A DNA stretch of 64,000 bases from Paeniglutamicibacter terrestris (GTDB taxonomy: Bacteria; Actinomycetota; Actinomycetes; Actinomycetales; Micrococcaceae). The translations under genes and the position numbers were made by a program. Location of the stretch: NCBI RefSeq assembly GCF_012271785.1, contig NZ_JAAWVT010000004.1:1-64000 (forward strand). Direction: 5' to 3'. The notes under the pieces were generated by a model, which was not told the DNA's origin, did not search any database, and saw only the letters and a program-made list of their open reading frames with translations. Positions 49,135 through 63,669 of the stretch are shown here, piece after piece; within the stretch, counting starts at the first letter, position 1, and each line of letters opens with the position of its first letter.

Positions 49135-50208
49135 TTAGAGCTGCAACAACAGCACTCCGGCATAGGCCAACCCGGCAATCAATGCCCATGCACTAAGGGC
49201 CATGAGCACTGCCGCGCCCTTTGAGGCAAAGAGTTGGCGGATCCGCACGGCCGAGCCTAGGCCGAAGAGCGCCGCTGCCAACACCACGTCCTGCACTAGG
49301 GTCACCGCCTCCAACACTTCGGTGGGGATATCGAAGATTGAACGAACGGCCACCAGCAGAACAAACCCAACAACAAATCCCGGAACGATGGGTGGGAGTT
49401 TGAGCCCTTGTCCGTTGATTTTTTGCTGCCCGCGGCGGCCTATGATTCCTGCTGCGGCAACCATCGGCGCGAGCATCAGCATCCGGGTGAGCTTGATGAC
49501 GATGGCAATGGCCAGGGCCGAGGCCCCCGCGGTCTGTGCGGTGGCGACCACCTGACCCACGTCATGAACCGAGGCACCCACCCATTGCCCAAAGGCAACC
49601 GGCCCCAGACCCAATGGATCACGCAGCAGCGGCAAAACCGCAATCGCCAACGTTCCGCAAAGTGTCACCAGGGCCACGGGAATCACGGTGTCCGAATCCT
49701 TGGACCGACGCACGGCGCTCATAGCGCCGACCGCTGAGGCGCCACAAATAGAGAATCCGGTGGCCACCAATAGGGGCTGATCCCCCGGCAGCCGGAAGGC
49801 CTTACCCAATAGGTAGGTTCCGCCGAAGGCCAGCAGCACAATGGCCGCCACCACCCCAAAGGTCGCCCAGCCTAGGTCCAGTACATCTATGATGCTCAGT
49901 TTCAGGCCAAGCAGCACAATCCCGGTGTGCATGAGCTTCTTGGACGCGAATTTCAGGCCCAAACGCCATGGTCCAGCGACCAATGATCCGGTGCCGGGAA
50001 GGTTAGCTGCTAGAACACCAAGGGCCACCGCGGTGGTCATCACCGGAACGGAGGGTAGCAACCGATGCACCACGAAGGCGAGCACCACCGCCACGGCACA
50101 GGCGGCCAAACCCGGCCAACGGGTGTGCAGCCATGCTCTTGTACCCGGGCGGACCGTGCCTTCCCCATGAAACTCGGGTGCGTTCTCGTCCCGTGTTCGA
50201 TCGCCCAT
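49135..50208 (-). CDS. YeiH/UPF0324-type membrane transporter (putative sulfate exporter family)
   Basis: 357 residues, about 10 membrane helices. Conserved family segments: LGVLAANLPG near residue 65, FASKKLMHTGIVLLGLKLS near 88, ATGFSICGASAVGAMSAVR near 148 and GASVHDVGQVVATAQTAG near 210 (the VHDVGQV signature). The family is annotated as putative sulfate exporter (PSE), with little experimental support. The ATG at 50208 has AAGGA 8 nt upstream; a GTG just before it is possible. It sits next to the RamB-like regulator but with 114 nt between. Confidence 0.83.
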   Translation of the reverse strand: MGDRTRDENAPEFHGEGTVRPGTRAWLHTRWPGLAACAVAVVLAFVVHRLLPSVPVMTTAVALGVLAANLPGTGSLVAGPWRLGLKFASKKLMHTGIVLLGLKLSIIDVLDLGWATFGVVAAIVLLAFGGTYLLGKAFRLPGDQPLLVATGFSICGASAVGAMSAVRRSKDSDTVIPVALVTLCGTLAIAVLPLLRDPLGLGPVAFGQWVGASVHDVGQVVATAQTAGASALAIAIVIKLTRMLMLAPMVAAAGIIGRRGQQKINGQGLKLPPIVPGFVVGFVLLVAVRSIFDIPTEVLEAVTLVQDVVLAAALFGLGSAVRIRQLFASKGAAVLMALSAWALIAGLAYAGVLLLQL

Positions 50209-50325
50209 CACGGCGTTCCTTCCAAACGTTCATTCCCCGCTACGTTGCGGGGCTTCACCCATTCTGCCGTGTTTGCGTCGACGCACCGCATCCGAGATAG
50301 ACGTCGGCCACGGGTACGATTCGGG

Positions 50326-51825
50326 CTACTTGTCCCCGGCGTGATGTGCGAGGAATGAATACACTTCTGTCTCGTCTACACCCGGGAAGGCACCCTGTGG
50401 CATGGCCGCCAAGAGGTGGGTCTGGGCGCGTGCGCTGGGCCAGGCTTGGCCAGCCCACTGCTTCTGCAGATCAAGTGGCGGACGGCGGCAGCAGGATTCA
50501 TCCGGGCAGGTGGATATGGATCGTTCGGTGGTGTCGCGGCCACGGAACCACTTCACGTGCACATAGGGCACGCCGATGCTGAGCGAGAACTTTCCTGCCG
50601 TTGATCGTTCGGTCCGCGCGGTGCACCAGAAGGTACCCGCAGTGGTGTCGGTGTACTGGTTGTAGGCGCTGAATTGGTCGGCCACGTCAAAGACTTCGCG
50701 GCTGGTCCAGTGGCGGCATACCGCCTGCCCCTCGATCGATCCGGTGTGATCCATCGGGAAGTTCACTCCGTCGTTTTCATACGCCTTGTGAATGATGCCC
50801 GATTCGTGGACCTTCTGGAAGTGCACGGTGATGCCTAGGTGTTCGGTGGCTAGGTTGGTAAAGCGATGGGCTGCCGTCTCATAGGACACCGAGAAGGCGT
50901 CACGGATGTCCTCGACGGCCAGCTCGCGTGCATTCTTGGCCTTCTGCAAGAAGTCCACCGTTGCCTTCTCCGGCATCATCAGCGACGCGGCAAAGTAGTT
51001 GGTAGCTACGCGTTGGCGCAGAAAATCGGCGTAGTCGGTGGGCGGAGCATGGCCCAATACGTGGTGCCCGAACGCCTGCAAAAGCACCGAGCGGGTGGAA
51101 TGCTCGGAGCGCTGGGACTGCGTGAGATACACGCGCATGTTCTTGAGATCCGTGACCGACCGAGTGGAGTGCGGCAGATCTGAAACATTGTGGAGGGAAA
51201 AGCCCAGGTGCGATGCGATGTCGGCAACTTGGTGATGCGAGAGCGGTCCGGAGGTGTGGCCGATGGCTTTGAGCAGCCCCGCTGCTTCCTTCTCGATCGC
51301 TGGGAAGTAGTTGTTGCGTTCCTTCATTTCTCCGCGCAGTTCGGCATTGGCGCGTCTGGCTTCCTCGGGCGTGGCCGACTGCTCGTTGAGTCGACGCTCG
51401 AGTTCTCCCTGCAACCCGACGAGGGATTCAAGCACGTCCATGGGCAGTCTCGAAGAGATCCTCACCTTGGGCAAGTCAAGGGATTGGTAGAGCGGACCGC
51501 GTTGGGCGCGCTCCAACTCGATTTCCAGAGCAGCGCGCCGGGTGGGTGGCGCGGCGCCGAGTAGCTCATCCAGACCTACGCCGAAGATCGTCGCCAGTGC
51601 CTTGAGCATGCTGAGCTTTGGTTCGCGCTTCCCATTTTCCATCAGCGACAGCTGGCTGGGCGCGGTGCCCACCGCTGCGGAGAGATCATCAAGCGTCATT
51701 GACTTGGCCTTGCGCAGATGACGAATTCGCCGGCCCAGAGAAATGATGTCCAGTTGCTCGGCATCTTCCGGCGACAGGACGCTCTTCTCCGGTGTTGCTG
51801 GCCGGTTCCATGTGGGGGTGCTCAC
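50326..51825 (-). CDS. RamB/ScfR-like XRE family regulator with IrrE-like domain
   Basis: 499 residues. N-terminal HTH_3: LGRRIRHLRKAKSMTLDDLS and GTAPSQLSLMENGKREPKLS (about 30-80). A coiled segment is followed by an ImmA/IrrE-like domain where the metalloprotease HExxH is replaced by LLQAFGHHVLGH, so protease activity is not expected. The C-terminal domain (about 330-460) ends in a Cys-rich CPDESCCRRPP. This layout matches RamB and other short-chain fatty acyl-CoA regulators that control acetate, propionate and glyoxylate metabolism. The GTG at 51825 follows TACTCT by 6 nt (leaderless); the frame is open upstream but without supporting features. Target genes are not evident nearby. Confidence 0.87.
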   Translation of the reverse strand: MSTPTWNRPATPEKSVLSPEDAEQLDIISLGRRIRHLRKAKSMTLDDLSAAVGTAPSQLSLMENGKREPKLSMLKALATIFGVGLDELLGAAPPTRRAALEIELERAQRGPLYQSLDLPKVRISSRLPMDVLESLVGLQGELERRLNEQSATPEEARRANAELRGEMKERNNYFPAIEKEAAGLLKAIGHTSGPLSHHQVADIASHLGFSLHNVSDLPHSTRSVTDLKNMRVYLTQSQRSEHSTRSVLLQAFGHHVLGHAPPTDYADFLRQRVATNYFAASLMMPEKATVDFLQKAKNARELAVEDIRDAFSVSYETAAHRFTNLATEHLGITVHFQKVHESGIIHKAYENDGVNFPMDHTGSIEGQAVCRHWTSREVFDVADQFSAYNQYTDTTAGTFWCTARTERSTAGKFSLSIGVPYVHVKWFRGRDTTERSISTCPDESCCRRPPLDLQKQWAGQAWPSARAQTHLLAAMPQGAFPGVDETEVYSFLAHHAGDK

Positions 51826-51831
51826 ATTTTT

Positions 51832-51837
51832 AGAGTA
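51832..51837 (-). promoter_or_regulatory. -10 box of a probable leaderless RamB-like transcript
   Basis: TACTCT on the minus strand, then AAAAAT (6 nt), then the GTG at 51825. Confidence 0.5.
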
Positions 51838-52025
51838 CGCGAAGAAGTGAAGACCTTTCCAGCAAAGCGGCGAGTAAGTCGTTAATAGAACACCGAAGTA
51901 TGCGTTTTTAGCAAAGAAGGCAGAGTTGTCCTGGCTCCCGCGTTGGTGCGTAAACCTCACGAGGTTCGGTGGACATCTATTCGGCAGGAAACCCGGGGTT
52001 GCGCCCGGACATTCGCCCTGCAAGC

Positions 52026-52823
52026 ATGAAACCGATGACTGACCAGCTGAAATACCTCGCGGCCTACGATGAGCAACTACGCACAGATGCTGAAACACCC
52101 AGCGCTATCCGGGTGGAGGTCGAAGGCCCCGTCCGGCTGGTGACATTCGCCGGTGGGCGCGGTTTCGTCACCTACAGAGATCTTGGAACGCTCGACGCCG
52201 GTGGAATCAACCAGCTCGTGAATCGGGCGTTGAATTACTACCGCGCCGATCCGGCCATTACCCAGGTCGAGTGGAAAACCCGTGGGCACGACCGAGCCCC
52301 GGGTCTACACGAAGCACTACTGGATCACGGATTCCGGCCAGATGAACCAGAATCGATCATGATCGGCGCTCTGGAGGGGTTATGTCGCGGGGTTCAAACC
52401 CCTCAGGGGGTTCTCCTGCGACGCGTCACCGGTGATAGCGATATTCGCGCCATGAGTGAAATGGTCGAGGAGGCATTCGGCGATCCCGCCAGCACCCGCC
52501 TTGCCGATGCCCTCATCGGGCGTCTGGCACGCAACGACGGCATGGAATTATGGGTGGCCGAGACCGATGGTCGCATGGTCAGCGCGGGCAGGCTCGAACC
52601 CGTTCCGAACACCGACTTCGTCGGCATTTGGGGAGGAGCCACTCTGGAGGCTTACCGTGGTCGCGGGATATACCGCGCGCTAACTGCTGAGCGTGCGCGT
52701 TCGGCCATGGCTTCGGGCAAAAAATTGGTCCACAGCGATTCGACGGAGTACTCCCGGCCTATTCTGGAACGTTCCGGACTGATCAAGGTTTCCACCACCA
52801 CGCCCTACAACTGGTCGCGCTAA
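52026..52823 (+). CDS. GNAT family N-acetyltransferase
   Basis: 265 residues with two GNAT-like halves. The C-terminal half is the better one: MELWVAETDGRMVSAGRLE near residue 170 and the acetyl-CoA loop TLEAYRGRGIYRALTAERAR near 205 (R-G-R-G-I/x-Y). The N-terminal half (VEGPVRLVTFAGGRGFVTYR) is diverged. The start is uncertain: ATG 52026, ATG 52035 or an upstream GTG at 51969 with GAGG; none is clearly best. Substrate unknown. It is divergent from the RamB-like gene. Confidence 0.8.
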   Translation: MKPMTDQLKYLAAYDEQLRTDAETPSAIRVEVEGPVRLVTFAGGRGFVTYRDLGTLDAGGINQLVNRALNYYRADPAITQVEWKTRGHDRAPGLHEALLDHGFRPDEPESIMIGALEGLCRGVQTPQGVLLRRVTGDSDIRAMSEMVEEAFGDPASTRLADALIGRLARNDGMELWVAETDGRMVSAGRLEPVPNTDFVGIWGGATLEAYRGRGIYRALTAERARSAMASGKKLVHSDSTEYSRPILERSGLIKVSTTTPYNWSR

Positions 52824-52997: not shown

Positions 52998-54224
52998 TTA
53001 GGTATAGAGCGATAGTGGCTGCAACTCGCCATGCAAGAAGTGGGCCCCAACTTCGATCTTCTTGTAGTCGACGGGGTCATGCAGGGTATGCGTGCGTACA
53101 TTTCGCCAGAATAGGTCCAACCCTACGGAATTGGCTGTTGAGCTGGCGCCGGTGACCTCATAAATGCGGTTCGCGACCTCAATGCCGGTTTCGGTGGCCA
53201 CAACTTTGAGCTCGGCAATGGCAATGGCATACTCACCGCGCTGCTGCGCGGTGAGCTCGTGCGAGCGGGCGACCTCGGTATCAAAGCGACGGTTCAATTT
53301 CTCCGCAAGCGCCTCCACTGCTGCAGTTCGCGCCTTGAGCTCCCCGATAGTGCGCTGGAAAATCACGTCGTGCGCGTAGCTTTCGGCATCAGAGAGGAAC
53401 CAGGCGTTTTTGCGCGCCAGCAGTAGTTCACGTCCCTTGGCCAGTGCGCCCTGAGCGACACCGAGGTAAAAGTTGCCGAAGCCCAACTGCACACCGGGTG
53501 TCAACAGCGAGGCGATGGGCTCGTCGGTGACTTCGCCAAGGATATCTTGCGGGTGCACCGCAACATCGGTGTACTTCACCGAACCAGAAGCCGTCAGCCG
53601 CTGTCCTAGGTGATCCCAATCCCCCAGTAGCTCCAATCCTTCTCGCCCGGTATCCAGCACAAAAGCCAACACCTTGCCGTGGTTTGCCCCGCCATCGATG
53701 ACCGCGTTGACGATGATGACCTCGCCAACACCGGAGCCGGTGGAGAAGCGCTTCAGCCCGTTAAGTCGGTAACCCTCGCCATCTTCGGTGAGCACCAAAG
53801 TCGGGTCCACGGGGTTCACCGAGTCGCCCCAGAGCCAGCCGCCCTCCACGGTCCGACGCCACCAGGTTGCTTGGTTTGCCGGGGCAGCATAAAAGCCGAT
53901 GCCTGCCTGATTAAAGTAGTGGTAAGCCAACAGTTGCGAGATCGATCCGTCGGCAGTGGCCAGGATGCGCACGGTGTGGAAGGCGGATTCGAAGTGTCCC
54001 CCGCCGCCACCGAATTCCGCGGGCACTAGTAGGTTCAGCAGACCCGAGGAACGCAACAATTCGGCTTCGGCGCGCGGTGTCGCGTTGGCGCGGTCGCGCT
54101 CCAGCGCGTTGGCGGCAAGGGTCTCGGCGACCGACTGAGCGATGGTGCTCCAGTGGGAGATCTCCGCTTCATCAGCCTGAGAGGTCCAGGGGGTTCGGCG
54201 CAGGGTTTGGGGTTGGGCAATCAT
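52998..54224 (-). CDS. Acyl-CoA-dehydrogenase-fold flavin monooxygenase (DszC/SfnB-like)
   Basis: 408 residues of the acyl-CoA dehydrogenase superfamily, in the branch that includes DszC (dibenzothiophene monooxygenase) and SfnB. Segments: LLVPAEFGGGGGHFESAFH near residue 65, GDSVNPVDPTLVLTEDGEG near 132, LNGLKRFSTGSGVGEVIIV near 152, RLTASGSVKYTDVAV near 208 and YEVTGASSTANSVGLDLFWR near 368, ending in a His-containing RTHTLHDPVDYKK. In DszC-type enzymes reduced FMN and O2 oxygenate sulfur. It is the last gene of the SAM-riboswitch-led operon, 15 nt behind the DszA-like gene. Its own flavin reductase is not in the operon. Confidence 0.84.
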   Translation of the reverse strand: MIAQPQTLRRTPWTSQADEAEISHWSTIAQSVAETLAANALERDRANATPRAEAELLRSSGLLNLLVPAEFGGGGGHFESAFHTVRILATADGSISQLLAYHYFNQAGIGFYAAPANQATWWRRTVEGGWLWGDSVNPVDPTLVLTEDGEGYRLNGLKRFSTGSGVGEVIIVNAVIDGGANHGKVLAFVLDTGREGLELLGDWDHLGQRLTASGSVKYTDVAVHPQDILGEVTDEPIASLLTPGVQLGFGNFYLGVAQGALAKGRELLLARKNAWFLSDAESYAHDVIFQRTIGELKARTAAVEALAEKLNRRFDTEVARSHELTAQQRGEYAIAIAELKVVATETGIEVANRIYEVTGASSTANSVGLDLFWRNVRTHTLHDPVDYKKIEVGAHFLHGELQPLSLYT

Positions 54225-54239
54225 GGTTCTGCTTCTTTC

Positions 54240-55682
54240 CTAGGCTTGGTTTTCAGCCAAGACGGCTTCGGGAGTGGCGCTTGCCGCGGCATCGGCAGCG
54301 GAAGACTTATTGGCGTAGGCGCCGCGGTAGACGGCGGCCGGGTGAGTGTCTGCCACCTTGGTGTTGCCCTCTCCAGCGACGTATTCGCGGAGGGTTGAAC
54401 CCTCATAGTTTTCCCACACCCGCCCGCGCTTACGCAGTTCTGGGACCACCAGATCACTGAACTGCTCGAAGGATCCAGGAGTCACCGCGTAGGCCAGGTT
54501 GATGCCGTCGAGTCCCGACTCGTCAACCCAACGCTCCACCTCATCGGCGACGGTCTCGGCGGACCCGACAAAGACCGGTCCAATCCCGCCAATGCCGAGA
54601 TAGTCGGCAATCGCATTGGGGGTCCATGACCTAGTGGGATCCGCGGTGGTGAATATGGACAGTGCCGAGCGCGCGGCGTTGGTATCGATGTACTTCAGTT
54701 CCTCGTCACCTGCGTACTTGCTCAAATCCAAACCCGACCATCCACCATAGAAGGTCATGGCACCTTCGCGGGAGGAATATGACTGGTACTCGCGGTACAG
54801 CGCTTCGGCCTTGGCATCGGAGTCGGCCACCACGGTGGTGACCAACGCGTAGAGCTTGGCGGCATCGCGCGGGCGCCCCACCAGTTCAAATTCGTCGCGG
54901 ATCGCCTCGGTCTGCCGGCGGGTGACAGTGGTGTTGATCGAGTTGAGGAAGATCCCTTCGGCGTGTGTCGCTCCGAAACGACGGCCGCGGGACGAGGCCC
55001 CGGCTTGGAAGATGGCGGGGGTGCGCTGAATGGACGGCTCTGAGAGGTGGATGCCTGGCACCTTGTAGTAGGTGCCGTCGTGGTTGATCGGGTGGACCTT
55101 GGCAGGGTCGGTATAGATCCCGCGTTCCCTGTCCTTGACGACAGCCCCGTCTTCCCATGATCCTTCCCAGAGCTTGTACACAACTTCCATGAATTCGTCA
55201 GCCAGATCGTAGCGCTCGTCGTGATCCAGCTGGCGGGTGTATCCCAGATTTCGGGCCGCTGACTCAAGGTAACTGGTCACCACGTTCCAACCGATCCGGC
55301 CTCCGGTGAGGTGGTCAAGGGTGGAGAACTTGCGCGCCAAGGCGTAGGGCTGTTCGTAGGTCAGCGCGCTAGTCACCGCGAACCCGAGATTCTTGGTGAC
55401 AGCCGCCATCGCGGAGACCTGCATAAATGGGTCATTGAGCGGGACCTGGTCGGCATCCAACAATGCCGGAGCGCTGGAGTTTTGATAAACATCGTAGATG
55501 CCCAACACATCCGCAAGGAAGAGAGCGTCGAAGCCACCAGATTCGAGGGTCTTGGCGAGGGATGTCCAATATTCGAGGGTGTTGTAGCCGTCAGCGCGGT
55601 TCTCCGGATGGCGCCAGAGCCCTGGACTCTGGTGCGTCGGGGTAGTCATGTCGAAGGCGTTGAGGGAGATACGTTGTGCCAT
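54240..55682 (-). CDS. LLM-class flavin monooxygenase, DszA/NtaA/SnaA family
   Basis: 480 residues of the bacterial luciferase-like FMNH2-dependent monooxygenases, in the long NtaA/SnaA/DszA branch that cleaves C-S or C-N bonds. Typical segments: HQSPGLWRHPENRADGYNTL near residue 17, GGFDALFLADVLGIYDVY near 48, GRIGWNVVTSYLESAARNLG near 127, HDERYDLADEFMEVVYKLWEGSW near 153 and PAIFQAGASSRGRRFGATHAEGIFL near 218. It follows two sugar-type permease genes by 19 nt and precedes a DszC-like gene. Together with the SAM riboswitch this favours desulfurisation of an organosulfur compound. The exact substrate is unknown. Confidence 0.87.
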   Translation of the reverse strand: MAQRISLNAFDMTTPTHQSPGLWRHPENRADGYNTLEYWTSLAKTLESGGFDALFLADVLGIYDVYQNSSAPALLDADQVPLNDPFMQVSAMAAVTKNLGFAVTSALTYEQPYALARKFSTLDHLTGGRIGWNVVTSYLESAARNLGYTRQLDHDERYDLADEFMEVVYKLWEGSWEDGAVVKDRERGIYTDPAKVHPINHDGTYYKVPGIHLSEPSIQRTPAIFQAGASSRGRRFGATHAEGIFLNSINTTVTRRQTEAIRDEFELVGRPRDAAKLYALVTTVVADSDAKAEALYREYQSYSSREGAMTFYGGWSGLDLSKYAGDEELKYIDTNAARSALSIFTTADPTRSWTPNAIADYLGIGGIGPVFVGSAETVADEVERWVDESGLDGINLAYAVTPGSFEQFSDLVVPELRKRGRVWENYEGSTLREYVAGEGNTKVADTHPAAVYRGAYANKSSAADAAASATPEAVLAENQA

Positions 55683-55701
55683 GGGTGCTCGAGCCCTGTC
55701 T

Positions 55702-56802
55702 TTAGGTAGTTGTTCTCGCGGTGGAGCGCGCTGCCGGTCGAGTGAACAGCCGAGTCAAGATTCCTGTGCCAGACGGAAGGTTCCGGGAAAGTAGAACCCC
55801 GAGCAACAGAATGGCCAGCAACACCACACCGCGGCCCAACCCCTGCCAGAAGAAGGAGAGTCCGACCAGGTTCATCCCGTTGCTCAGCAATCCGAAGATC
55901 AGCACGCCCATAAGGGTTCCGGGCACCGAGACTCGGGAGAAGCGTGAGAGCGTGGCGCCGATGAAGACCGCGCCGATAGCGTCCATCAGGTAGGCCTGGC
56001 CGGAACCGGGAACAAAGCCGTTGGTCCGGGAGGCCAGAATGACCCCGGCAAACCCGCCAACAAGAGAACAGAGCAGGTACGCCGAAACAGTGATCCGGTT
56101 GATGCGCAACCCGGAGATCCGTGCAGCGGTGGGCTGTTCCCCGGTGACAGTGACCGAACGTCCCCAACGTGTCGTTCCAAGCAACGCTCCGATGAACAGT
56201 GCGACCAATGCAGCACTGACGATGACGCCGTCCACATCGAGCAGGTAGCCGCGGCCTAGCAGCGCGAATTCGATCGGTACTCGCGGCTTCGAGAGATAGA
56301 TGGGCGCCCCACCACCGGTGAGCAGTTGCTGGACGCTGCTGCCGATGAACCAAACGCTCAGTGTTGCCAAGAAGGGCGGAATGCGTAGGCCAACGATCAA
56401 TGCCGCATTAACGACTCCGACCAATAGTCCGAAGAACAATCCCACGACAATGGCAACCCACGCCCTATAGCCGTCTGCGATCAGCGCAGCCGACGCCAGT
56501 GCGGCAAGGTCCACGGCAACACCGATGGAGAGGTCGATGCCGCCGGCCCTGACCACCACGGTCAAACCCGTAGCCACCAACGCAAGGATCGCCATTTGAC
56601 CCAGCACCCCTACCAGATTCCCAACGCTCAGAAAGACTGGGGAGAGCAACGAGAAGCCCAGCAGAATGGCTGCCAATGCCACCGGCGCGATCAATCGCGG
56701 AGCAAGGGATCGCCAACGGCGGGGAACGGTGACCGGAGATAGTTCACGCGTCTCTGACCGCGGAGCGGGGAGATTTTTTTGGGGTTGTTGGGTGATAGTC
56801 AT
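55702..56802 (-). CDS. ABC transporter permease, ribose/RbsC type (second permease)
   Basis: 366 residues, about 9-10 membrane helices, BPD_transp_2 family. Features: LTVVVRAGGIDLSIGVAVDLAAL near residue 85 (the GGIDLSVG signature), GLRIPPFLATLSVWFIGSS near 140, and GVILASRTNGFVPGSGQAYLMDAIGAV near 250. ATG 56802 overlaps the stop of the first permease by 4 nt (ATGA); a longer upstream extension is antisense-like and unlikely. It forms a heteromeric pore with the neighbouring permease. The family usually imports sugars or autoinducer-2, but the operon context suggests a sulfur compound. Confidence 0.88.
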   Translation of the reverse strand: MTITQQPQKNLPAPRSETRELSPVTVPRRWRSLAPRLIAPVALAAILLGFSLLSPVFLSVGNLVGVLGQMAILALVATGLTVVVRAGGIDLSIGVAVDLAALASAALIADGYRAWVAIVVGLFFGLLVGVVNAALIVGLRIPPFLATLSVWFIGSSVQQLLTGGGAPIYLSKPRVPIEFALLGRGYLLDVDGVIVSAALVALFIGALLGTTRWGRSVTVTGEQPTAARISGLRINRITVSAYLLCSLVGGFAGVILASRTNGFVPGSGQAYLMDAIGAVFIGATLSRFSRVSVPGTLMGVLIFGLLSNGMNLVGLSFFWQGLGRGVVLLAILLLGVLLSRNLPSGTGILTRLFTRPAARSTARTTT

Positions 56803-57806
56803 TTGGCAGTGTTCCTTCCGCGAACAACCACGACGGCGAGTACCAACAGGATCAACACGCCCTTGGCGGCACCGACCCACTGGCTGGCGACTCCCAGCAG
56901 CGTCAGCCCATTGGCCAGCCCTGCCACAAAGATCGCGGCAACTACTGTGCCGGGGATATTCACCACCAGTCGACGCGAGAAGACGGTAGACATGTAGGCA
57001 ACCAGGATGATGTCCAGCAGGATTTGTCCGCCGATTCCGGGGACTGCTGCGGAGAGCCGGGAAGCCAGCAGAACCCCGGCGATGCCGCCGAGGACGCCGC
57101 TGATCACGTAGCTCATAAAGCGGTGACGGGCAACGGACAGGCCGGCAATTGAGGCAGCAATGGAATTCTGTCCCACCGCATAGCTATGTACACCCCACGA
57201 TGTCCTGGCCACTGCCCACCACGACACCAACGCGGCGACGGCCAAGACCAGCACGGAGGCAGGTAACCCGGCGATGCTACCCTGGCGCAGCCAAAGGAAG
57301 ACACCCCCATCGAGCGCGACCTTGATATTGTCGCTGACCACTAGATCCAGAGATGTAGCGATGCCCATCGTGGCCAACGTCGCAAGGAGCGGCCGCAGAC
57401 CCAGAATCACTGCCGCACCGTTAAGCGCACCCAGAGCTGCGGCCACAGCCAGACCGGTCAACACCGCGCGCAGGCTTCCCGCACCGGCTGCAGCTGCAAC
57501 CGCGGTAACGCTCCCGGCCAAACCTGCTGTGGCGCCGACGGACAGGTCGATACCGCCCTCCAAGACATCGTCACCCCCGGTGATGATCACCACGGCCAAT
57601 CCGATGCCGGCGATGCCGAATACCGCTGCCTGGTTTAGCACCGAGGACAGGTTCTCCCACTGCAGGAAGTATGGCGATCCGAGGGCAAAGATCCCTAGGA
57701 CCAGAACGACAACGCCATAGCCAGCCCACGCGAGCAGCGACGGGCGTTTCCGCGTCGGCGTCGGCGCACCGGTATCCCCAGGGATTTCAAGAATTGCGGT
57801 GCTCAT
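56799..57806 (-). CDS. ABC transporter permease, ribose/RbsC type (first permease)
   Basis: 335 residues of the BPD_transp_2 family. Features: GLAVVIITGGDDVLEGGIDLSVGATAGLAG near residues 69-98, LRPLLATLATMGIATSLDLV near 140, and IAGVLLASRLSAAVPGIGGQ near 245. GGDD before the GGIDLSVG motif is a small insertion relative to RbsC. Its start overlaps the ATPase stop by 4 nt and its stop overlaps the next permease start by 4 nt, so translation is coupled throughout. Confidence 0.88.
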   Translation of the reverse strand: MSTAILEIPGDTGAPTPTRKRPSLLAWAGYGVVVLVLGIFALGSPYFLQWENLSSVLNQAAVFGIAGIGLAVVIITGGDDVLEGGIDLSVGATAGLAGSVTAVAAAAGAGSLRAVLTGLAVAAALGALNGAAVILGLRPLLATLATMGIATSLDLVVSDNIKVALDGGVFLWLRQGSIAGLPASVLVLAVAALVSWWAVARTSWGVHSYAVGQNSIAASIAGLSVARHRFMSYVISGVLGGIAGVLLASRLSAAVPGIGGQILLDIILVAYMSTVFSRRLVVNIPGTVVAAIFVAGLANGLTLLGVASQWVGAAKGVLILLVLAVVVVRGRNTAK

Positions 57807-59368
57807 GCGTCCTGCCTGACGTTGATGGGGTTAGTGGCTTTGGCAGAAAGCTCTGCGGCGCCGTTGGTTCCAGAGGCGATGGCCAGGAGTTTTTCGGTGG
57901 TGACAGCGTTGCCGGAGAGTTCGGCGGCGATGTTCCCGCGGTAGAGCACCAGGGTCCGATCGGCGATGCCGACCAGTTCCTCGAGGTCCACGCTGATCAG
58001 CAACACGGCCGCGCCGCCATCCACCAGTTCATTGATCTGGGCGTAGATTTGGGCGCGGCTGCCAACATCGACGCCGGAGGTCGGCTGATCCAGGACTAGC
58101 ACCGAGGCATCGCTCGCCAGCCACTTGGCCAGCACCACCTTTTGCTGGTTGCCGCCGGACAGACTTCCGGCAATCGCAGAGCCGTTGGCCGGGCGCACAT
58201 CAAGTTTGTTGATCAATCGTTGTGCAAGTTTGTTTTCCAGCGCCGGGGCGATCACGCCCAGTGACCGGGTAATCTTACTTAGAGCGGTCACGGAGATGTT
58301 CTCGGCCACGGTGTTGCGCAGGAAGATTCCATCGCGGCGTCGGTTGGAGGGCACGTAGGCTCCTCCGCGAGCGACAAAATCCGCCACGTCACGTACGCGC
58401 CCACCTTTCACCTCGACGGTTCCATGCCGCTTGGTGATGCCGGTGAGGGCATCGGCCAAAATCTCAATTCCGGAGCCCACCAGACCAGTGACAGCCAAGA
58501 CCTCGCCGGGCAAGACCTGAAAATCCAATCCGTTCAAGGCTCGTGGCACACCAAGCCCGGTAACTTTCAGCGCGGCGTCCTCCGTCTGGGGGCTACGAGG
58601 GGTGCGTCCATGGTCGAACTCCACGACCTTGCGTCCAACCATCAACTCCACCACGTCATCAAGGGTGTCCCCGGATCCCAGCGACACCTCACCGGCGTTT
58701 CGGCCATTGCGCAGCACGGTAATTCTGTCGGTGATGGTGTTCAGTTCCTGCAGGTAGTGGGAAATGTAGATGATGCCCACACCCACCTCCTGCAGACGGC
58801 GCAACGTGCCGAAGAGTTGCTCGACCTCGCCGGCCGCTAATGGTGCTGTGGGCTCGTCGAGAATCAAGACGCGCGGTTCGGAAAGCACCGCCCGGGTGAT
58901 CTGGATCAGCTGCTGTTGGGCAACGGTGAGTTGCCCTACCAGGAGCGCGGCATCGATGTTCTGCCCGGTGACCCGTTTAATGTCTGCGCTGGCCCGTTCC
59001 TCGAGCCGGCCGCGCCGGACCCAAGCCCCACCCAGTTTTCCAAGGCCCAGGTAAAGCTGTTCGGCGACGCTCAATTGTGGGGCCAGATACCGTTCCTGGT
59101 GAATCACGTGGATCCCTAGGGCCTCGGCATCGGCGGGGCAGGTTATCACCACGGGCTTGCCGTCGAGCAGGATGCTGCCCGAATCGGCGGTGTGGAGCCC
59201 CGTGAGAATCTTGATCAGGGTGGACTTCCCGGCACCATTCTCACCCACCAGTCCTAGGATCTGTCCAGAGGCCAGCTCGAGGGAAACCTCGGAGAGCACC
59301 TGGGCCGATCCGAAGGACTTGGTGATGCCGCTCATCGAGAGCAGTCGATCGTTAGATACCGAGGTCAT
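57803..59368 (-). CDS. ABC transporter ATP-binding protein, RbsA type (two ABC domains)
   Basis: 521 residues with two nucleotide-binding domains, as in ribose/galactose importers. First domain: Walker A GENGAGKST near residue 42, a diverged signature LTVAQQQLIQI near 145, Walker B RVLILDEPTAPL near 165 and H-loop YISHYLQEL. Second domain: the degenerate P-loop GLVGSGIEIL normal for RbsA, signature LSGGNQQKVVLAKW near 400, VLVLDQPTSGVDVGSR (Gln for the Walker B Glu) and LISVDLEEL, in which the H-loop His is Val. The second domain thus looks catalytically weak, which is common in this family. It overlaps both neighbours (17 nt with the binding protein, 4 nt with the permease). Confidence 0.9.
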   Translation of the reverse strand: MTSVSNDRLLSMSGITKSFGSAQVLSEVSLELASGQILGLVGENGAGKSTLIKILTGLHTADSGSILLDGKPVVITCPADAEALGIHVIHQERYLAPQLSVAEQLYLGLGKLGGAWVRRGRLEERASADIKRVTGQNIDAALLVGQLTVAQQQLIQITRAVLSEPRVLILDEPTAPLAAGEVEQLFGTLRRLQEVGVGIIYISHYLQELNTITDRITVLRNGRNAGEVSLGSGDTLDDVVELMVGRKVVEFDHGRTPRSPQTEDAALKVTGLGVPRALNGLDFQVLPGEVLAVTGLVGSGIEILADALTGITKRHGTVEVKGGRVRDVADFVARGGAYVPSNRRRDGIFLRNTVAENISVTALSKITRSLGVIAPALENKLAQRLINKLDVRPANGSAIAGSLSGGNQQKVVLAKWLASDASVLVLDQPTSGVDVGSRAQIYAQINELVDGGAAVLLISVDLEELVGIADRTLVLYRGNIAAELSGNAVTTEKLLAIASGTNGAAELSAKATNPINVRQDA

Positions 59369-60446
59369 GCCGCACCTGGTTCACGTTGGTTTTGTTAACG
59401 AATACGGGGTCTAGGTAGCTGGTGGTGGGGACCTCATCGGCACGATCGCCAAGGAAGAGCGCGACGTTTGCCACAGATGCGGCAGCCATGCCCTTGGTCT
59501 GTTGTGCCACCGTGCCGGTGTAGGAGCTTTCAGGGTCAGCAATCAGGTCCAAGGCGCCCGGTTCGGCGTCAACGCCGTACAGCTTGATGTCATTGCCCAA
59601 TGTGGGGTCGATGGCTTGGGCGGCGCCAATCAGCGGGATATCCCAGCAGCTCCAGATGGCGTCGACCTCTCCGGCGGGAAGGCGGCGCAGCTGGTCTTGG
59701 ATCTGCTTCTTGGCATCTTCGATAGTGCCCTCATACTTGTCCTGCAGCTCCGGATCCAAGATTTCGATTCCTGGGTAGTCCTCAAGCACCACTTTGAGTT
59801 CGCTGTACCGAATGCGGCAGGGAGTCACCCCGGGGAAACCATTAAAGACGAGAATCTTGCCCTTACCGCCGATATCTTCAGCAAGCGTTCGCGCAACGGT
59901 GGAACCGATGTTCCAATTGTCGCTGGTGACGTTATTGGCGCTGTATTCGGACTGAAAATCGACGGTGAACAGGGCAACACCAGCCTCGTTGATCTTTTTC
60001 AGAGCAGGACTCAACGTCTGTGCGTCACCGAGGATCACGATGATCGCATCGGGTTTCTGGGTGAGCAGGTTCTCCACATTGCTGACATGTTTGTCGTCCT
60101 TGGCCTCAGCCTGAGTAGCAATGACCGTGCCACCAAGGCCCTTGATCTTCGTCTGAAGTTCCTCATAAACGACGCGACTGAAGTCGTGGACGATGTCCTT
60201 GGCAGCGATGCCAACCGTCTTGCCTGCCAAGGACGGAACTCCAGCCAGCGGGTCGGCGGCAGCCGACGGGGCGCCAGCTACCGCGGTTCCCCCACCGGTG
60301 GAGATTGGCGCGGAAGCGGCCACGGGTTCTTTGAGCGAGCAGCCGGTGACAAGCAGTGTCATGGCGGCCGCGATGGCTGCGCCCTTCAGCATGGCGCGAT
60401 GCAACGCATTGCTAGACCGCGCACTGTGGGTCTGGAGAATTTCCAT
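59352..60446 (-). CDS. Substrate-binding lipoprotein of the ribose-type ABC importer
   Basis: 364 residues, Peripla_BP_4/RbsB-like fold. Lipoprotein signal: hydrophobic GAAIAAAMTLLV and lipobox VTGC near residue 36, then a Gly/Ala/Ser-rich linker. Fold segments: KTVGIAAKDIVHDFSRVVYE near 77, LLTQKPDAIIVILGD near 125, KILVFNGFPGVTPCRIRYSEL near 198 and DAIWSCWDIPLIGAAQAI near 265. Unlike RbsB it has three Cys/Trp-rich positions around the predicted cleft, compatible with a non-sugar ligand (weak inference). AAGGA lies 9 nt before the ATG. It is the first gene of the operon and directly follows the SAM riboswitch leader. Confidence 0.87.
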   Translation of the reverse strand: MEILQTHSARSSNALHRAMLKGAAIAAAMTLLVTGCSLKEPVAASAPISTGGGTAVAGAPSAAADPLAGVPSLAGKTVGIAAKDIVHDFSRVVYEELQTKIKGLGGTVIATQAEAKDDKHVSNVENLLTQKPDAIIVILGDAQTLSPALKKINEAGVALFTVDFQSEYSANNVTSDNWNIGSTVARTLAEDIGGKGKILVFNGFPGVTPCRIRYSELKVVLEDYPGIEILDPELQDKYEGTIEDAKKQIQDQLRRLPAGEVDAIWSCWDIPLIGAAQAIDPTLGNDIKLYGVDAEPGALDLIADPESSYTGTVAQQTKGMAAASVANVALFLGDRADEVPTTSYLDPVFVNKTNVNQVRHDLGI

Positions 60447-60519
60447 AAATCGAGTTCCTTCAACAATCTAGGCGGAGAAGAAATCGGTAAACAAACCGTC
60501 CCAAAGTTGGTGCGTGCGT

Positions 60520-60640
60520 GCCATGGGCGGAATCGCGAGATCTCCATCGGACCTGGCTGAAGCACTATTCACGGATTGCTTCGTGAACTTGCTGCGGCGT
60601 CAACAAGCCAGGTCTCTCGGCCGCTCTGGATGGGTACTCC
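60520..60640 (-). promoter_or_regulatory. SAM riboswitch (SAM-I/SAM-IV clan, probably SAM-IV) leading the organosulfur operon
   Basis: On the minus strand the leader shows the S-box core in order: CCATC (60633-60629), CAGAG, P2 GCGGC (60624-60620), CGAGAGA, then TTGACGCCGCAGCAA. P2 pairs with GCCGC (60598-60594), P3 is the TTCACG/CGTGAA hairpin (60587-60568), and P1 closes with GATGG (60548-60544). CCTGGCT in the P2 loop (60612-60606) is exactly complementary to AGCCAGG after P3 (60558-60552), the expected pseudoknot. There is no P4 hairpin, and GATT (60534-60531) can pair with AATC in the P3 loop; both points favour the actinobacterial SAM-IV form. Located 98 nt before the binding-protein start, it should turn the operon off when S-adenosylmethionine is plentiful. 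The expression platform is not obvious. Confidence 0.82.
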
Positions 60641-61050
60641 TCGATTTAAGCACTCGAGTTCATTCGAATAAATACGGTCGTAACATGGCGAGGAAGCAAC
60701 TCCTCGTGACGTCATTGGGCGTCTTCTTCACCTCTTGATGCAGTCATAAACGACCACCGGTCATCGCCAGCACGTCATATGTCGCAAGGATTCGTCTCTC
60801 TTCGTCGTCAATTTCGCGCAAGTCGCGATCGTATGGCCAGTCCAGTCAGTTCCCGTGGTGCTTAGCCGTCAGATTCATACCAAGCATTGTCAGCATTGTT
60901 TTCCCTTCCTGCTGCTGTGAACCGCGAACCGGCCGAATCAAAATGTGGATCCATCGGACCTACACGCCGGGCGGCAGCCAAAGAGGTTCACCGATTACAT
61001 GCTCCGATGAGTCGAGGAAATCTAGAATTGAGATACGGACAGAGGACCCA
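60641..61050. other. Divergent intergenic region upstream of the riboswitch and the small basic protein
   Basis: About 410 nt. It should hold the operon promoter (TTAAAT and TATTTATT are candidate -10 elements on the minus strand near 60655-60675) and the promoter for the small gene at 61051. Open frames here have no ribosome site. No repeat or RNA family is recognised. Confidence 0.4.
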
Positions 61051-61762: not shown

Positions 61763-61842
61763 TTCCCCATTCATCTGCGCTTGGAACGTTTGTTGGGTCG
61801 ACCTATTAGTTGGCAGGTTTCACTCAAACCCGGAGGTACATC

Positions 61843-63669
61843 GTGCAGTCGTTTGCCCATTCGTCCAAAAAACGCCAAGCCCGACCGATCGCCGTCACAG
61901 CCGCCACCCTAGCCAGCATGCTGACCGCAGTCGCCTTGCTCTCCCCCGCCGCCAGTGCCGACCCAGCTCCCAGCAACTGGGATGCAGACGCCTACCGCGG
62001 CACCGTCGACGTCGTAAAATCGACAGGAATCACCGGCGAGCAGCTCATCGATGGCATCGTCTTCGAAGATGAGAACAAGAACTCCACACAGGACACCAAC
62101 GAACCTGGCCTCAAGAGCGTGAGTGTGTCCAACGGCCGTGAGGTCACCACCACAGATTCACAGGGTCGCTACGAGCTGCCAGCCTTCGATAACATGAGCG
62201 TTTTTGTCACCCAGCCGCGCGGCTACCAGGTCCCCGTTGATCACAACAACGTCGCCCAGTTCTCCTACCACCACCTTTCCGAAGGTTCCCCGGAACTGAA
62301 ATTCGGCGGTCTGGACCCGACCGGTGCCCTGCCTCAGGCCGTGAACTTCCCCTTGGCCAAGAGCAAGCTGACCAAGTCCACTGAGCAGCACTGCCTCATC
62401 GGCGGCGACGTTCAGACCTACGACCAGGACGAGGTCGAATACGCCCGCCATGGTGCCTTCGCCGATCTGGCCCAGCGCACCGACTACGAGGGCTGCGGGG
62501 CACTGTTTATTGGGGACGTGGTCGGCGACGATCTTTCCTTGTACCCGCAGACACGCGAGCTAACCAACGTTCTAAACGGCCCGGCACGCTTCTTGCCCGG
62601 AAACCACGATCTGGATTACGACGCGACCACCAGTGAGCATGCGTTCGACACCTTCAAGGCCAACCTCGGTCCGGAGTACTACTCCTTTGATGCAGGCAAG
62701 GCCCACGTGGTTGCGCTGAACACCGTCGAATATCCAACGAAGCAGCCCGCCGCTCACGGTGACTACACCGGAGCCCTCGATGAGCAGCAGCTTCAGTGGC
62801 TGCGCAACGATATCGCTCAGGTGCCCAAGAACAAGGTCATTGTGATCGCCGCACACATCCCGCTGCTGGATTACGCGGACCAGTCAAATCCCAAGCACCA
62901 AGTTGCTCAGGTCGCCGAAATCTACAAGATGTTAGAAGGCCGCGAGGTCGTGGCTCTGGGCGGACACACCCACAGCCTCGAAAACCTCCGTGAAGGCGAC
63001 AAGACTGCCGGATGGAATGAGGCCTTCGGCGTTGATGGGTTGCCCTTCACTCACATCACCGCCGGCGCAATCTCCGGTGACTGGTTCTCCGGACGGGAGG
63101 GTGAGAACGGTTACCCGCTGGCCCTGCAGCGAGACGGCGGACGTCCGGGTGTGCTGACCCTAGACATCAAGAACACCGATGTGGTTGAGCGCTTCACGGT
63201 TCGTGGCGAAGATGACTCGGTGCAGATGGCCCTCGGGCTGAACACTCCTGCCTACCGCGCATGGTTCGACGCGAACCTCGCTAACAAGGGCAAGGCTCCC
63301 GCCTTTGAGAACCCGCTGACCGTTCCGAAGTCGGATCTGAGCAATAAAACGTGGTTGACCACCAACTTCTGGATGGGTTCCACCGGTTCCACCGTCAACA
63401 TCAGCATCGACGGCGCTCCTAGCACCGAAGCCACACGCACGCAGGCGATGGAAGGCGAGGCCCAACTCTCCGGCGCCGAGTTCTCCGACCCGGTCGCCGC
63501 ACAAGAGCAGCTGGTTAATGGCGGCAGCCTCGCGGACCGCACCATGCACCTGTGGCGCCTGGAACTGCCCTCCGAGCTTGCCGTTGGCGCGCACACCGCA
63601 GAGGTCACCGCGACCGACGTGCACGGCCGCGAATTTACTCAGACCCTGAGCTTCGAGGTCACCGAGTAA
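61843..63669 (+). CDS. Secreted calcineurin-like metallophosphoesterase
   Basis: 608 residues. Signal peptide: basic SSKKRQARP, hydrophobic AATLASMLTAVALLSP, cleavage near ASA-DP (residue 42). Residues 60-130 form an SdrD-B/MPPED N-terminal-like beta domain (GIVFEDENKNSTQDTNEPGL, a repeat common in surface proteins). The phosphoesterase domain follows: IGGDVQ, LFIGDVVGDDLS, LPGNHDLDYD, VIAAHIPLLD and ALGGHTHSLE, giving the Asp, Asn and His ligands of a di-metal site. A C-terminal beta domain (about 500-608) matches the Calcineurin_C type. GTG 61843 has GGAGG 6 nt upstream. It probably cleaves phosphate esters outside the cell; substrate unknown. Confidence 0.88.
   Translation: MQSFAHSSKKRQARPIAVTAATLASMLTAVALLSPAASADPAPSNWDADAYRGTVDVVKSTGITGEQLIDGIVFEDENKNSTQDTNEPGLKSVSVSNGREVTTTDSQGRYELPAFDNMSVFVTQPRGYQVPVDHNNVAQFSYHHLSEGSPELKFGGLDPTGALPQAVNFPLAKSKLTKSTEQHCLIGGDVQTYDQDEVEYARHGAFADLAQRTDYEGCGALFIGDVVGDDLSLYPQTRELTNVLNGPARFLPGNHDLDYDATTSEHAFDTFKANLGPEYYSFDAGKAHVVALNTVEYPTKQPAAHGDYTGALDEQQLQWLRNDIAQVPKNKVIVIAAHIPLLDYADQSNPKHQVAQVAEIYKMLEGREVVALGGHTHSLENLREGDKTAGWNEAFGVDGLPFTHITAGAISGDWFSGREGENGYPLALQRDGGRPGVLTLDIKNTDVVERFTVRGEDDSVQMALGLNTPAYRAWFDANLANKGKAPAFENPLTVPKSDLSNKTWLTTNFWMGSTGSTVNISIDGAPSTEATRTQAMEGEAQLSGAEFSDPVAAQEQLVNGGSLADRTMHLWRLELPSELAVGAHTAEVTATDVHGREFTQTLSFEVTE

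Follow-up and report, generated by a model that had tools for sequence, protein, structure and literature searches.

In SAM-I (S box) structures, A45 and U57 hold the adenine of SAM, and C47 stacks alongside. The SAM-I/IV class has P4 and lacks the pseudoknot PK-1, according to the excerpt of PMC6890682, and its P2 is undivided, without an internal loop, in the excerpted text of PMC2864571. Spermidine-sensing SAM-I variants, changed in J1/2 and in the P3 internal loop, are reported in the abstracted part of PMC10853860. Masking of the ribosome site by P1 itself is described for SAM-I in a section of PMC2258182. Among the literature matches listed, none described the SAM riboswitches of the host family or a P4-less SAM-I; the P4-less form of this family may have been described earlier.

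The window, the whole 64,000-nucleotide stretch of Paeniglutamicibacter terrestris DNA analysed here, was said in the initial annotation to carry a SAM-clan riboswitch, and this was borne out. The whole RF00162 (SAM) model was aligned at 60636..60541 on the minus strand with 44.9 bits, above the gathering score of 44.4 (E = 5.1e-07 for 64 kb), in cmscan output that gives only the best family per clan. Of the three models proposed there for the search, SAM alone matched this RNA. In a search of the host's own genome that scored 150 of 889 first-look candidates, RF00634 (SAM-IV) had no match at the window aptamer at E 10 but passed its cut-off at five other places. RF01725 (SAM-I/IV) had no match in the host genome at E 10 (138 of 138 candidates scored). 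Because of these results and the SAM-I-like GA steps of P2, a likeness to SAM-IV beyond the missing P4 was not upheld. RF00162 was present in 121 of 149 sampled family genomes at E 1e-5 and exceeded the cut-off in 113. Plasmid records gave short matches only, in three records. The coordinates of all features are collected in Table 1.

Table 1. Features of the aptamer, its leader and the downstream operon.
Feature	Position	Strand	Evidence
P4-less SAM-I type aptamer, core variant	60541..60636	-	RF00162 44.9 bits; alignments A2, A3
P1 5' strand CCATC	60629..60633	-	
P2 (P2a, GA/GA kink-turn-like bulge, P2b) with L2	60594..60624	-	
Pseudoknot strand CCTGG	60608..60612	-	
P3 with enlarged internal loop AA / AGU (core AAG...UAGUGC)	60561..60593	-	Covariation; 14 exact genome matches
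Pseudoknot strand CCAGG	60552..60556	-	
P1 3' strand GATGG	60544..60548	-	
Putative Shine-Dalgarno GAAGGA of first gene	60456..60461	-	
Substrate-binding protein, Peripla_BP_4, CUT2 (ribose) type	59352..60446	-	Fold nearest 4wt7 Z 34.7, 3l49 Z 33.1
ABC ATPase, sugar-importer type	57803..59368	-	
ABC permease 1 (BPD_transp_2)	56799..57806	-	
ABC permease 2 (BPD_transp_2)	55702..56880	-	
NtaA/DmoA-family FMN monooxygenase	54240..55682	-	TIGR03860 520 bits (cut-off 280)
DszC/SfnB/MsuC-like flavin monooxygenase, acyl-CoA dehydrogenase fold	52998..54224	-	Relatives 8cda, 6u76

P1 (CCATC/GATGG), P2 (GCGGC/GCCGC), P3 and the core words were all located as the initial annotation had them. Its 7-bp pseudoknot CCTGGCT/AGCCAGG is complementary as claimed, but was counted as 5 bp (CCUGG/CCAGG), because in the family alignment the final two bases of the first arm are taken up by pairing within P2b. 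In that alignment, 97.8% of cells of the L2-J3 pseudoknot were paired, with both-side changes in two of five pairs. Over the whole aptamer, pairing reaches 98.9% of cells in 37 distinct sequences, with both-side changes in 9 of 23 pairs. The GA steps of P2 were invariant on both strands in 38 of 38 sequences, and a putative kink-turn was read from them.

The absence of P4 was confirmed, with 13 nt and no hairpin between GUGC and the P1 3' strand in the window. This spacing was exactly 13 nt in all 29 parsed family loci (30 tried; L028 unparsed) and 12 or 13 nt in the host's own P4-less elements, and the 13-nt P4-less form was also found at three loci from other families of the order. In the phylum-wide comparison set, which consists of the 30 best-scoring loci and is biased toward canonical forms, at least 24 nt with a predicted stem stood at the P4 site in 26 of 29 parsed segments. 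The other three segments were short since the search expression ended early, as the full sequences indicate for two of them; the third is L089. Since P4 is absent, the window RNA was classed as a variant of the SAM-I type. It is a P4-less SAM-I type RNA with a kink-turn-like P2, a type that is common in the host family and present in other families of the order.

The P3 core reads GCAAG...UAGUGC in the window, compared to the canonical GCAACC...GGUGC; this noncanonical internal loop was absent from the initial annotation. The exact variant pattern, which preset the loop letters and left the stem register and gene context free, matched 14 times in 395 family genomes, once per genome and in three genera, and had zero matches in the reversed control. 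Conservation of the loop is partly an effect of how the loci were picked, because the pattern fixed its letters. The 14 exact variants preceded a window-type binding protein (9), a window-type DszC-like gene (3) or another SfnB-like gene (2). Two near forms bring the total to 16 loci: one, which has A at 47, precedes an SfnB-like gene, and the other, with A and C54, a DszC-like gene. All 16 lie before importer or SfnB/DszC-like genes, and none lies before methionine genes. A pattern open at position 47 gave 64 matches in the host genus, of which 57 were canonical at positions 47-48 and 7 carried the variant. This count covers only aptamers matched by the pattern and so omits, for example, the metF element of the host. 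A looser order-wide pattern was noisy, with 8 matches in 396 genomes versus 4 in the reversed control. In this sample, where the host genus is thinly represented, the variant or a near form appeared in the window and in G023, another genome of the family, and nowhere else; the remaining matches were judged by eye to be canonical, short or due to chance.

When 15 variants were aligned, both-side changes were observed in five of the six outer P3 pairs, and 96.7% of cells paired in the register that places AA opposite AGU. None of 500 shuffles reached the values of these variants for cells paired, double-change cells or covariation, and three reached the count of changed pairs; for pair types, the variants were no higher than the shuffles (reached by 491 of 500). 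The alternative register, in which position 47 pairs with 56, was supported by 0 of 15 cells and was rejected. Covariation therefore supports a predicted enlarged AA/AGU loop in place of AA/U. P2a and the pseudoknot were invariant in all 15 variants, and the RF00162 scores of the 15 other variant loci ranged from 29.3 to 56.4 bits, with 10 over the cut-off. The enlarged loop lies at what we take to be the SAM adenine-binding site of SAM-I, and the window bases presumably equivalent to A45, A46, U57 and G58 are kept. With A45 and U57 kept and their neighbour C47 changed, the variant would alter the wall of the pocket and retain its contacts.

The importer/monooxygenase operon that had been proposed downstream of the aptamer (52998-60446) was substantiated by domain profiles. 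The structural relatives of the predicted binding-protein model (mean pLDDT 75.9) were of sugar type only. They include 4ry8, by its title a 5-methylthioribose binding protein, at 21-22% identity; from this likeness it follows that the fold could carry a sulfur-bearing sugar, and no more. Few genomes encode the window binding protein (at E 1e-40, 4 of the 297 sampled from the order), and its nearest named relative is from Paeniglutamicibacter sulfureus (82%). The first monooxygenase belongs by profile to the NtaA/DmoA family; its nearest solved relative is the dimethyl-sulfide monooxygenase 6ak1 (606 bits), and dimethyl sulfide may be its substrate. The second scored under the equivalog cut-offs for both DszC (NF043015, 257.7 versus 850) and SfnB (TIGR04022, 240 versus 431).

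Three neighboring units were also recorded. An HTH_3 plus IrrE-type protein (50326-52098) follows the operon, and the same architecture follows a variant-core SfnB-like locus of another genome (L153:5845-7644). A Cons_hypoth698/YeiH-type putative transporter, under the NCBIfam cut-off, lies at 49135-50211. The gene at 61810-63669, which points away from the operon, encodes a large calcineurin-like phosphoesterase with MetallophosN and MetallophosC domains.

The named genome collection has 11 loci with relatives of the binding protein. At 10 of them the importer has both monooxygenases as neighbours, in a single operon order at five and in divergent orientation at five; at L063 the importer had no monooxygenase match within 10 kb. 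A SAM aptamer at the cut-off was detected at five loci (L054, L055, L056, L060 and L061) and by motif only at L062 and L053, the L062 aptamer also occurring in L105 and L106 with 41.1 bits. Neither the gathering score nor the motif revealed a SAM aptamer at L063 or at the three Rathayibacter loci (L057, L058 and L059). The aptamer-free divergent promoter region of the latter, which lies ahead of the monooxygenase gene and the binding-protein gene, shares, by eye, GTTGCG/GTGACG-like repeats, which are perhaps the site of a protein regulator. The orthologous operons of Arthrobacter mobilis and Arthrobacter sp. B0490 (L055 and L056) stand behind a P4-less SAM-I with canonical core. Quadrisphaera (L060) and a MAG (L061) have SAM-IV before the importer (92.5 and 91.1 bits) and a P4-less SAM-I before the divergent monooxygenases (51.0 and 52.0 bits). 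The placing of one orthologous gene set under two SAM-sensing classes is the best evidence for SAM as the signal.

The host genome contains five P4-less SAM-I elements, including the window one, and five SAM-IV elements. The four P4-less sisters precede a metF-metE-metY-metB-like operon, whose metE and metB exceed an equivalog cut-off; an operon that combines an importer and its TIGR04028-like binding protein (below cut-off) with SfnB-like and DmoA-family genes; a pair made up of an SfnB-like and a DmoA-family gene; and acsA (C26:213324-213413, equivalent to L008:17324-17413, plus strand), whose product is over the equivalog cut-off. P4-less SAM-I elements before AcsA were also found in relatives (L044, L108, L118, L124 and L147), and this control perhaps serves to recapture acetate released by the use of O-acetylhomoserine. 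Among the SAM-IV elements, one precedes metY-metX and one an OsmC-like gene. Another (L012:10614-10727, minus strand) precedes a flavin reductase, whose ATG lies about 70 nt downstream. Two-component flavin monooxygenases require a flavin reductase, and this one is a likely partner of the SAM-controlled monooxygenases.

The context of the best SAM-I element per family genome (n = 30) was assigned by tblastn with host proteins, L138 to L143 being excluded from the tallies. It comprised an ABC ATPase in 10 cases, a DmoA-family gene in 7, a TIGR04028-like binding protein in 7, MetY in 3, an SfnB-like gene in 2 and AcsA in 1. Two of the 10 ABC ATPases were checked, and both had MetN as the top score, below the MetN cut-off.

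Of 81 leaders, 21 have a potential start codon (ATG or GTG) 7-10 nt after GATGG, although start calls are crude; the Shine-Dalgarno would thus fall within P1 and the ribosome site would be hidden by P1 itself. All of these 21 leaders carry a canonical core and many come from a single genus; the 16 variant-core rows contribute none. The window start codon lies 97 nt from P1. When 17 leaders were folded with P1 forced or forbidden, the Shine-Dalgarno was hidden in the SAM state in 7, the window leader among them, the opposite was seen in 5, and the change was at most 0.05 in 5, so that a single expression platform for all leaders was not found. In the window leader, the unpaired value of the Shine-Dalgarno was 0.04 in the SAM state versus 0.40. 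By consensus, no promoter-like site was found in 60350-60950 and no intrinsic terminator in the leader; the sole terminator match, against a chance expectation of 0.5, is located upstream of the aptamer. The idea of a conserved short reading frame in the leader was rejected, because the ATG frame of the window does not keep its place in relatives (by eye). Control would be at the level of translation.

Taken together, the window RNA is quite probably a cis-acting OFF riboswitch of SAM-I type without P4, controlling organosulfur import and sulfur release. When SAM is abundant, it would bind between P1, P3 and the pseudoknot and stabilise P1, and the translation start of the operon would be closed; when SAM falls, the operon would be made. 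The sugar-type ABC importer would then bring in an organic sulfur compound, and the two flavin monooxygenases would free its sulfur, probably fed by the flavin reductase behind SAM-IV elsewhere in the genome. From family and context we infer SAM as the ligand, repression as its effect and an organosulfur compound as the substrate. The operon is thus most likely switched on only under sulfur shortage. The assignment to sulfur acquisition, already made in the initial annotation, gains support from the contexts of the sister elements, the linkage of importer and monooxygenases, and the divergent units behind SAM-IV and SAM-I in two relatives, which also argue for repression by SAM. Against this reading, the variant differs in its core at a position next to the ligand site that is otherwise strongly conserved. 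The mixed folding results, the 97-nt distance to the start codon, the leader's want of promoter-like and terminator-like sites and the four loci at which no SAM aptamer was detected also count against it. The variant most likely tunes SAM binding or affinity, which is favoured because orthologous operons carry canonical-core SAM-I (L055 and L056) or SAM-IV (L060).

The variant core could instead sense another sulfur metabolite, such as methionine or a sulfonium compound without adenine, and still repress scavenging genes. The 16 loci in three genera, all before importer or SfnB/DszC-like genes and none before met genes, would fit this, as would the covariation in favour of AA/AGU over AA/U and the precedent of spermidine-sensing variants altered in J1/2 and the P3 internal loop (excerpt of PMC10853860). 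It is improbable, however, given the canonical-core P4-less SAM-I before the importer operons of the two Arthrobacter strains and the SAM-IV before the orthologous importer genes of Quadrisphaera. The presumed equivalents of A45, A46, U57 and G58 are also retained. A new ligand class within SAM-I, in which the enlarged loop shuts the adenine pocket and methionine or an adenine-free sulfur metabolite gates organosulfur scavenging, likewise has only a slim chance; if true, it would act independently of the canonical, SAM-sensing sister elements of that cell. Decay into a non-functional relic is suggested by the marginal 44.9 bits of the window and by 5 of the 15 other variant loci scoring below gathering, one at 29.3 bits, but is very improbable because the identical loop is found with differing, paired P3 stems in three genera and P2a and the pseudoknot are unchanged in 15 of 15.

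The missing P4 is shared with SAM-IV, but a true SAM-IV or SAM-I/IV riboswitch is hardly credible in light of the RF00634 and RF01725 searches above. In addition, the SAM-I/IV class lacks the P2 internal loop (in the excerpt of PMC2864571) and PK-1 but has P4 (in that of PMC6890682), the reverse of the window RNA. The alternative that the importer carries a plain sugar or polyol, with the monooxygenases alone serving sulfur, is unlikely but has some weight: the nearest binding-protein relatives are sugar-type, the L063 importer lacks a nearby monooxygenase match, and at four g23 loci a variant aptamer precedes monooxygenases with no importer match in the stretch examined. The linkage at 10 of 11 loci under common SAM-clan control and the 5-methylthioribose binding protein of the same fold (4ry8, by title) argue against it. 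SAM-controlled organosulfur scavenging is therefore retained as the preferred reading. In the host family, where SAM-IV can occur as well, SAM-I usually lacks P4, and two riboswitch classes would guard the two halves of one pathway. A sugar-type importer would be assigned to sulfur scavenging through its RNA control, and the natural series of core variants would allow pocket affinity and specificity to be compared with canonical sisters of the same genome.

Compared to known systems, the window RNA shares P1, a kink-turn-like P2, P3, the L2-J3 pseudoknot and the core words with SAM-I (RF00162), whereas it lacks P4 and its P3 loop is AA/AGU rather than AA/U closed by C-G pairs. With SAM-IV (RF00634) it has in common the missing P4, a related core and occurrence in the same genome; in contrast, no 3' P5 hairpin or second pseudoknot was recognised in the window RNA, which was folded only as part of whole leaders. 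A related core is also shared with SAM-I/IV (RF01725). The architecture of P1, divided P2, P3 and PK-1, without P4 or a recognised SAM-IV tail, differs from SAM-I, SAM-IV and SAM-I/IV as set out in the excerpt of PMC6890682. Like the spermidine-sensing variants, as far as the excerpt of PMC10853860 describes them, it is a rare SAM-I variant with an altered P3 internal loop, but J1/2 is little changed and the genes are different. The operon shares DmoA/DszA-type and DszC/SfnB/MsuC-type flavin monooxygenases with the dsz/sfn/msu and DmoA systems, whereas in the window these genes stand with a CUT2 sugar-type importer under SAM-clan riboswitches.
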